Below, one piece after another: positions 741-5,519 of a DNA stretch of 13,215 bases. Origin of the DNA: Betaproteobacteria bacterium (GTDB lineage: Bacteria > Pseudomonadota > Gammaproteobacteria > Burkholderiales > Usitatibacteraceae); the NCBI GenBank assembly GCA_012274175.1, contig JAAOZZ010000227.1, positions 1 to 13,215 on the forward strand. Reading direction: 5' to 3'. Under the pieces are notes generated by a model, which saw nothing but the letters and a program-made list of their open reading frames with translations, did no database searches and was not told the origin of the DNA. How positions within the stretch are numbered: position 1 is the first letter of the stretch; each line of letters begins with the position of its first letter. The translations under genes were made by a program, and so were the position numbers.

Positions 741-1370
741 ATGCGCTACACGCTCAGGCAGATCCACTGCCGCCCCTGGAAGCTGAACGGGCTCTCGTTG
801 AAGCTGATGGAGAGCCATTACGAGAACAACTACGGCGGCGCGCTCCGCCGCCTGAACGCCGTCACCGAGCAGCTCGAGTCGCTCGACATGTACGAGCACG
901 CCTACCACATGGACTTCGGCGCCAACGCCCGGGCCTACGTCGAGACGTTCCTGCGCAACGTCGAATGGCAGGGCGTCGAGGACCGCTACCAACGCGCGGT
1001 AGAGATGCCCGCGCTGCAACCCATCGCGCAGCCGGAGTACGCCGAGCTGCCGAGCATCGGCGTCGAGGAGGTGAAGGAGCGGCTCTCGTCCGGCGAGCCC
1101 CTGCAAGTGATCGACGTGCGTCCGCGCCGCTCGCTCTCGCGCCAGCAGGACATCGCGGAGGGCGTGCTGTGGCGCGATCCGGAACTGATCGAGGACTGGA
1201 TAGGCCAGCTCTCGAAGTCCGACCCCGTGGTCGTGTATTGCGCCTACGGCTTCCACGTCGGCTGCAACACGGCGCGAAGGCTGCGCGAAGCGGGCTTCGA
1301 CGCGAAGTACATGGACAGCGGGCACTCGGGCTGGAAGGCGATCGGCGCCCCGATGAAGCTCGCGACCTGA
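741..1370 (+). CDS. Truncated Fe/Mn superoxide dismutase-rhodanese fusion (ChrC-ChrE-like)
   Basis: This is a 209-residue, probably cytoplasmic protein with two parts. Residues 1-86 align with the ends of an Fe/Mn superoxide dismutase. The N-terminal helix carries the first metal-ligand histidine (H26 in SHYENNYGGAL), and the C-terminal segment has LDMYEHAYHMDF, with the Asp (D49) and His (H53) ligands. Normally about 100 residues separate these; here they are about 20 apart, so the second His ligand region and the substrate-gateway core are absent. Residues 100-206 form a rhodanese domain with Cys167 in CAYGFHVG and a GHSGWK end motif. Rhodaneses transfer sulfane sulfur. The ATG at 741 was chosen because GGAGG lies 5 nt upstream and homology starts at once. 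The gene lies 41 nt before chrA. Separate chrC (SOD) and chrE (rhodanese) genes accompany chrA in C. metallidurans. The fold is clear; dismutase activity is doubtful. Confidence 0.85.
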   Translation: MRYTLRQIHCRPWKLNGLSLKLMESHYENNYGGALRRLNAVTEQLESLDMYEHAYHMDFGANARAYVETFLRNVEWQGVEDRYQRAVEMPALQPIAQPEYAELPSIGVEEVKERLSSGEPLQVIDVRPRRSLSRQQDIAEGVLWRDPELIEDWIGQLSKSDPVVVYCAYGFHVGCNTARRLREAGFDAKYMDSGHSGWKAIGAPMKLAT

Positions 1371-3325: not shown

Positions 3326-4315
3326 ATGAACGTTCTCCTTCGTGGCGCGGCCGCATGGCCCCTCGTGGTCGCGCTCCATGCCTTGCCGGCCGAGACGCAG
3401 CCCGGCATGGAGCTCGTGTCGACGACGCCGCTGCCCGGCGTCAAGGGACGCATCGACCACTTCGCCGTGGACCTCGAGAGCCATCACGTATTCATCGCCG
3501 CGCTGGGAAACGACACGGTCGAGATGATCGACACGGCGGGCAAGCGGCACCGGAGCATCGCGGGATTCCGCGAGCCGCAGGGCATCGCGTATGTCCCCGA
3601 GTCGAACCGGATCTTCGTCGCGAACGGGGAAGGCGCTCGCGTGGACATCGTCGATGCCTCCTCCCTCGCGGTCCTCGGACGCATCGAGGAACTGGACGAT
3701 GCGGACAACGTCCGGTACGACGCAGGCTCGCGCACGGTGCTGGTCGGGTACGGTGAGGGCGCTCTCGCGATCGTCGATCCGGCCAAGGCGCAAGTGGTCG
3801 GCCGCATTCCGCTGCCGGGCCACCCCGAGTCGTTCCAGCTCGAGCGCAACGGTCCACGCGCCTTCGTCAACGTCCCGGGCGCGCACAAGGTCGTCGTGGT
3901 CGACCGCGTCAAGCGCCGGGTCGTCGCAAGCTGGGACGTGCCGGACGCGGGAGGCAACTTTCCGATGGCGCTGGACGAAGGCAGCCACCGGCTCTTCGTC
4001 GGCGCCCGTTCCCCCGCCGTGATGCTCGTCCTCGACACGAGCTCCGGGAAGGTCGTGGCACGCGCGCCGATCGGCAACGACACCGACGACATCTACTTCG
4101 ACGCCAGGCGCAAACGCGTGTACGTGATCTGCGGCGAGGGCCGCGTCGATGTCTTTCGACAGGAGACGCCCGACCGCTACGTCAGGGAATCGTCGATCAA
4201 GACCGCCCCGCGCGCCCGCACGGGGATCTTCGTGCCCGAGGAGCGGAAGCTGCTCGTCGCCGCCCCGGCGAGCGGTGGCACGGCCGCACGGATCCTCGCC
4301 TACCGCCTGCACTGA
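3326..4315 (+). CDS. Secreted YncE/YVTN-type beta-propeller protein
   Basis: This is a 329-residue protein beginning with a hydrophobic leader (about residues 1-22, ending HALPA), so it is probably periplasmic. The rest is a chain of about 40-residue repeats typical of YVTN/YncE seven-bladed propellers. Examples are HVFIAALGNDTVEMIDTAGK, IFVANGEGARVDIVDASS, VLVGYGEGALAIVDPAK, AFVNVPGAHKVVVVDRVK, LFVGARSPAVMLVLDTSSGK and VYVICGEGRVDVFRQ. Such propellers bind partners or small molecules, and no enzyme motif is visible. The ATG at 3326 has no strong ribosome binding site. A six-codon frame (3309-3329) ends across this ATG (ATGA), so termination there might aid re-initiation. It is the last gene of the plus-strand operon. 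The family is well supported; the link to chromate or redox stress rests only on position. Confidence 0.8.
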   Translation: MNVLLRGAAAWPLVVALHALPAETQPGMELVSTTPLPGVKGRIDHFAVDLESHHVFIAALGNDTVEMIDTAGKRHRSIAGFREPQGIAYVPESNRIFVANGEGARVDIVDASSLAVLGRIEELDDADNVRYDAGSRTVLVGYGEGALAIVDPAKAQVVGRIPLPGHPESFQLERNGPRAFVNVPGAHKVVVVDRVKRRVVASWDVPDAGGNFPMALDEGSHRLFVGARSPAVMLVLDTSSGKVVARAPIGNDTDDIYFDARRKRVYVICGEGRVDVFRQETPDRYVRESSIKTAPRARTGIFVPEERKLLVAAPASGGTAARILAYRLH

Positions 4316-5442: not shown

Positions 5443-5519
5443 TGGTAGGCGCGATTGGACTCGAACCAACGACCCCCACCATGTCAAGGTGGTGCTCTAA
5501 CCAGCTGAGCTACGCGCCT
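5443..5519 (-). tRNA. tRNA-Val (anticodon GAC)
   Basis: A complete 77-nt cloverleaf reads on the minus strand. The acceptor stem is AGGCGCG/CGCGCCT, the D stem GCTC/GAGC, the anticodon stem CCACC/GGTGG with loop TTGACAT, and the T stem GTTGG/CCAAT (one G-U) with loop TTCGAGT. The discriminator is A and the 3' CCA is encoded. Anticodon GAC reads valine codons GUC and GUU. It stands alone, not in a tRNA cluster. No direct repeat or integrase hints that it serves as an attachment site. Confidence 0.97.

Follow-up and report, generated by a model that had tools for sequence, protein, structure and literature searches.

A superoxide dismutase-rhodanese fusion gene in a chromate-efflux locus appears to have lost its dismutase core by in-frame deletion

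A gene from a betaproteobacterium joins the two ends of a superoxide dismutase (SOD) to a rhodanese domain and lacks the middle of the SOD. Is it a new kind of protein, a gene on its way out, an assembly error, or a trimmed form of a known one? We analyzed the gene in its surrounding DNA, a contig of 13,215 nucleotides (the whole stretch is called the window). The reading we favor, at a probability of about 0.7, is that a fusion of the ChrC-ChrE type in a chromate-efflux locus lost its SOD core by deletion between repeats encoding Leu-Asp (LD), with the rhodanese half left intact. The short form is probably real, an allele that arose in a known fusion family through an in-frame deletion of a recurrent kind, and the finding is a modest one. 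The features are:

741..1370, plus strand: SOD-core-deleted SOD-rhodanese fusion gene (209 aa), from alignment to relatives, Pfam and a GGAGG motif
741..884, plus strand: SOD N-terminal remnant, residues 1-48, with ligand H26, from alignment to full-length relatives and 1coj
880..887, plus strand: CGCTCGAC, sole copy left of a short direct repeat at the junction, LD codons; two copies or near-copies in intact relatives, mostly 324 bp apart
885..1010, plus strand: SOD C-terminal remnant, residues 49-90, LDMYEHAYHMD minus its L, with ligands D49 and H53, from Pfam Sod_Fe_C
1056..1367, plus strand: rhodanese domain, residues 106-209, with catalytic Cys167, from Pfam Rhodanese; ChrE-like, below the cut-off of NF033833
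1412..2605, plus strand: chromate transporter (ChrA), from PF02417 (8.4e-78)

We found that the gene belongs to a family of Fe/Mn-superoxide dismutase-rhodanese fusions of about 317 aa, and that 108 residues are absent here. The frame is open for 209 aa, with GGAGG five bases upstream of the ATG. Searching for related proteins at E<=0.001 turned up 5845. Among the 120 that were listed, 118 have lengths of 315-325 aa, the two short exceptions being P0001 (209 aa) and P0008 (278 aa). The remaining sequence shares 78-81% identity with the six closest among ten aligned relatives, and the absent segment is residues 48-155 of the relative P0002 (317 aa). Window residues 45-82 match Pfam Sod_Fe_C at profile positions 65-102 of 102 only, so that this C-terminal domain is incomplete although it scores 33.3 bits (cut-off 20.9). 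Residues 108-200 match positions 2-101 of 102 of the Rhodanese profile (38.3 bits; cut-off 22.2), and Cys167 (1239-1241) is present in 118/118 relatives. Both domains of the fusion are thus recognized in one frame, the SOD domain only in part. The Pfam scan of the 209-aa protein matched no family beyond these two. The NCBIfam model for ChrE, NF033833, gave 73 bits, under its curated cut-off of 120.

The remnant is derived from an SOD. Residues 8-50 align to the start of 1coj, a solved Fe-SOD, and residues 46-88 to its end; the first stretch is weak alone, and the full-length fusion family matches 1coj across the whole SOD domain. An earlier note on this DNA, made from the letters alone, had described an SOD-rhodanese fusion retaining H26, D49 and H53, with the SOD core between the ligands gone, the frame open and the rhodanese intact. 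The alignments and Pfam matches agree with that description and with the SOD ancestry of residues 1-86.

We take the four SOD metal ligands to be H26, H75, D157 and H161 (P0002 numbering). H26 (816-818) is kept in the window gene, as are the last two, now D49 (885-887) and H53 (897-899). H75, which is H in 117/118 full-length relatives, lies within the missing segment, as does Trp123 (conserved in 118/118). The full-length fusions ('Fe-Mn family superoxide dismutase', ~317 aa, such as P0006 and P0002) are like the window protein in the N-terminal 48 residues, the C-terminal SOD segment, the linker and the rhodanese, and they too are often near chrA. Unlike it, they own the 108-residue core with His75, a Gly-rich strand and Trp123. 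Without the full ligand set, the short protein would presumably have no SOD activity.

The SOD gateway pair His30/Tyr34 is also absent from the window protein, which has N30 and A34 instead. N30 is found in 118/118 and A34 in 117/118 full-length relatives, and both are found in ChrC of plasmid pMOL28. This is therefore a family trait and no product of the deletion, and any catalytic relevance of it is putative. We considered whether N30/A34 has cost the entire family its SOD chemistry and did not accept this, because pMOL28 ChrC shares both residues and the ChrC of Ochrobactrum tritici is reported to be an Fe-SOD (PMC4779226).

The neighborhood points to chromate efflux. The chromate transporter gene starts 41 bp downstream of the fusion gene, and the two likely form one operon. 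On the 3' side of chrA are a gene for a protein with a sub-threshold PF06439 match and then one for a beta-propeller protein whose YncE-like matches are sub-threshold. We found chrA-like sequence in the flanking DNA of 49/72 fusion rows, a count in which some genes appear repeatedly and some flanks are short. On pMOL28 of Cupriavidus metallidurans, the order is a ChrB-domain gene, the chromate transporter, the SOD and chrE, and a YncE-family gene lies farther along. Where they overlap, the pMOL28 SOD and P0002 are 57% identical, and pMOL28 ChrE is 36% identical to the window rhodanese over 83 residues. Based on this gene order and these identities, we suggest that the window gene is of a fused ChrC-ChrE type: the alignment to ChrC and ChrE proposed in the earlier note matches its two halves to neighboring separate genes of pMOL28. 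In contrast to the window, where one fused gene carries only an SOD stub, the pMOL28 SOD is complete. YncE-like propeller genes, 25% identical, lie near both chr loci (window 3326-4312; NC_006525.1 131615-132583).

ChrC of the O. tritici transposon TnOtchr is likewise the SOD of a chromate operon and has been purified. It differs from the window family in being an SOD of ~22 kDa, and rhodanese is unmentioned in the portion of that paper searched (PMC4779226). chrE is called less studied in another report (PMC3817168), and no title or abstract opening matched by our literature search described a fused SOD-rhodanese gene.

The SOD half may be dispensable, since 5/5 genus relatives have a separate Fe/Mn-SOD (a Sod_Fe_C gene) and the fusion was not seen in 2/5 of them (one of these 81% complete). 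In the window's own metagenome-assembled genome (MAG; 80.6% complete), Sod_Fe_C and Sod_Cu matches beyond the fusion were not found, perhaps for missing sequence.

We found that the deletion ends coincide with a repeat of the coding sequence. In intact relatives both edges of the gap encode LD in the same frame. Among 13 rows of >60% identity, the spacing between the LD sites is exactly 108 codons in 11, and in seven the sites share 6-8 bases, CGCTCGA(C). The repeat shared by the deletion ends of intact relatives is often 6-10 bases (CGCTCGAC), and the window retains one copy, at 880-887. The idea of a deletion between short repeats, put forward in the earlier note, thus holds in principle, but the pair it named does not: the GCTCGA copies at 872-877 and 881-886 are both 5'-side sequence. 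Three intact loci (L031, L111 and L033) already read CTCGAGTCGCTCGA at the 5' site, and the partner, at the codons for LALDMYEH, follows 324 bp downstream. The deletion between the two copies would probably have come about by replication slippage or single-strand annealing.

The two repeats specify identical residues in a shared frame, and a deletion between them thus keeps the frame regardless of selection. An open frame is weak evidence of function after a deletion of this sort. The earlier argument that a clean in-frame deletion cannot be decay is therefore not supported, and such deletions are common in a control gene as well (8/120 listed; below). LD/LD was the longest direct repeat in only 3/53 intact genes examined, so repeat length alone predicts the junction poorly, and we rejected it as sole cause of the shared junction. 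This comparison took 53/82 distinct genes, and the LD-site comparison 54/83; the rest were outside the site patterns or had no D at the 5' site.

The same junction occurs in another family. In genome G262 (95% complete; same order as the window's, different family) we found a short form (L129:1369-1944) with an LD/LD junction identical to that of the window, the rhodanese kept and a ChrA-like gene downstream. It differs in being only 43% identical and in having a shorter linker and K at position 30. The two deletions were presumably independent events. G474, a genus mate of G262, has an intact fusion gene with 113 codons between LD sites and 6 shared bases; in G460, of the same family as G262, the sites are also 113 codons apart and share 10 bases, GGCGCTCGAC. 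The suggestion of an individual-strain lesion is thus right that the form is rare among the relatives listed, but not that it is confined to one strain: it is on two contigs (the second is P0001, below) and in a second family. The same cut in a distant relative makes this look like a known gene that is trimmed repeatedly, not like a new enzyme.

Other deletions of the fusion gene have scattered ends. Genome G085, of the genus of G262, has a different in-frame deletion (L157:1375-1644, ~91 aa) in which the N-terminal SOD stub runs directly into the latter half of the rhodanese, a part that contains the Cys loop; a ChrA-like gene again lies downstream. At L030 3596-5052 (also L141) are tandem SOD-rhodanese copies, the first without 19 SOD-core residues around the Gly-rich strand and the second running off the contig; G480, which has a 200-mer in common with L030, likewise has two tandem copies, the first without 19 residues of the SOD part. 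In all, in-frame deletions reach into the SOD part in 4/41 fusion loci of the species genomes sampled (G000, G262, G085 and G480), and others are found in metagenome proteins.

In this tally, four genes with one in-frame stop each (G338, G463, G729 and G911) were counted as full length, as was G474:C38 on its 321-aa frame alone. Gaps at P0002 192-218 in distant loci were taken as linker length. Broken pieces of G164, rhodanese-only rows and SOD-only rows (G156, G049, G164, G252, G193, G231, G914, G913, G871, G892:C11, G890:C293 and G890:C562) were left out. L068, L069 and L074 were rejected as short forms, as the first residues of the query align there to the ordinary SOD segment before LDMYEH. 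Plasmid matches H11 and H12 are of the same size as these apparent short hits.

The alternative that survives best, although we think it doubtful, is a pseudogene in which neither half is used and the open frame is a recent chance state. Besides the two genus relatives in which no fusion was seen, losses elsewhere favor it: a fusion gene is down to 37 codons directly before chrA at L086 (4001-4300), the G085 gene has lost about half of its rhodanese, and 6/82 distinct near-complete fusion genes have an in-frame stop. The window gene itself reads otherwise, with a good ribosome-binding site, Cys167 and 56/57 strongly conserved rhodanese positions kept.

An assembly error or chimera, in which 324 bp of a gene that is really full length would be missing from the contig, is unlikely. 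The source MAG is fragmented (479 contigs, 80.56% complete), and the database is rich in internally deleted forms. However, P0001, the representative of a two-member cluster, carries this short form too, on a contig of 6801 bp (the window contig has 13215). It differs from the window protein in one residue near the junction, H53N, a lost metal ligand at a position that is H in 118/118 full-length relatives. The difference could be a sequencing error, and the sample could be the window's own. P0001 speaks against an assembly error that happened just once, and also against conservation of the metal site. In addition, the k-mers usually used in assembly are far longer than the 6-10 bases of homology here, and the junction is found again in G262.

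We estimated how common such deletions are with a second gene of the window, for an RlmI-like rRNA methyltransferase. A 167-aa query, for which the size filter shuts out full-length relatives and so favors deleted forms by design, gave internal gaps of at least 15 aa in 18/120 fusion proteins listed; in 17 of these the gap extends into the SOD part. The matching RlmI-like query, scored on only the 8000 candidates sharing most words, gave gaps in 8/120 listed (Fisher p=0.06). The RlmI-like deletions are lesions or assembly errors, and in-frame internal deletions are thus background in the protein database. In the 98 genomes of family f11, 3/15 fusion loci have in-frame deletions that extend into the SOD part, compared with in-frame deletions in 0/80 complete RlmI-like genes (p=0.003; p=0.024 for G262 and G085 alone, 2/15). 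Five of 85 genomes with partial or split RlmI rows (G425, G450, G454, G455 and G487) were set aside. Family f46 had such deletions in 0/16 fusion loci (p=0.10 against the 3/15 of f11). Selection probably constrains the RlmI-like genes more strongly than it does the fusion, and this control therefore does not demonstrate a higher mutation rate for the fusion.

We think it quite improbable that conserved LD codons set off the SOD core as a removable cassette, one that lineages repeatedly excise in frame at these same codons while keeping the rhodanese and stub as a selected single-function partner of ChrA.

The state of the remnant bears on whether the stub is used. At positions at least 90% conserved in the 118 relatives, the window protein deviates at 6/63 in the stub and linker and 1/57 in the rhodanese. 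None of the 118 reaches six stub and linker deviations; one relative shows 5 there and 0 in the rhodanese. With the tree fixed, the stem comes to 0.187 for the remnant and 0.164 for the rhodanese (summed ratio for the other tips, 0.88). Any relaxation of selection on the remnant would thus be modest only. In an AlphaFold2 model of the window protein (40 sequences, a shallow alignment), pLDDT is <50 at residues 1-35, 37-39 and 41-63 and mostly >80 over 101-190, with a dip near 131-140. Its 50 listed Foldseek matches are mostly titled rhodanese-like, none SOD. The model of a full-length relative (33 sequences, mean 71.7) has an SOD fold and a poorly modeled rhodanese part, and its 50 listed matches are SODs, solved ones included.

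Least likely is a selected short form, with stub and rhodanese as a stable new arrangement carrying a dimerizing or metal-binding tag: it would explain an identical junction in two families at 43% identity and a largely conserved remnant, but H53N in P0001, the excess of stub and linker deviations, the low pLDDT over most of residues 1-63 and the scattered ends of the other deletions are against it. The new metal-binding tag of the earlier note is probably not what the short protein is, given H53N and the same low pLDDT.

We therefore return to a ChrC-ChrE-type fusion trimmed at its LD repeats. The ancestor, encoded in a chromate-efflux locus, would have been a bifunctional protein with an SOD of the Fe type joined to a rhodanese. 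The SOD core with His75 would have been lost by deletion between the two in-frame repeats, so that the four-ligand site could no longer form. The rhodanese half, still intact, would presumably be expressed together with ChrA. As judged from its sequence, the short protein may serve as a ChrE-like sulfurtransferase under chromate stress. Provided that the recurrent deletion is genuine, the part of the fusion worth retaining in chromate-efflux loci would seem to be the rhodanese half, and natural deletion alleles would be at hand for testing the role of each half.

Elsewhere in the window, the sole Rfam match is a tRNA gene at 5446-5519 on the minus strand. A divergent minus-strand frame at 1-411 runs off the contig end and, by its motif, presumably encodes a DUF488-type protein.
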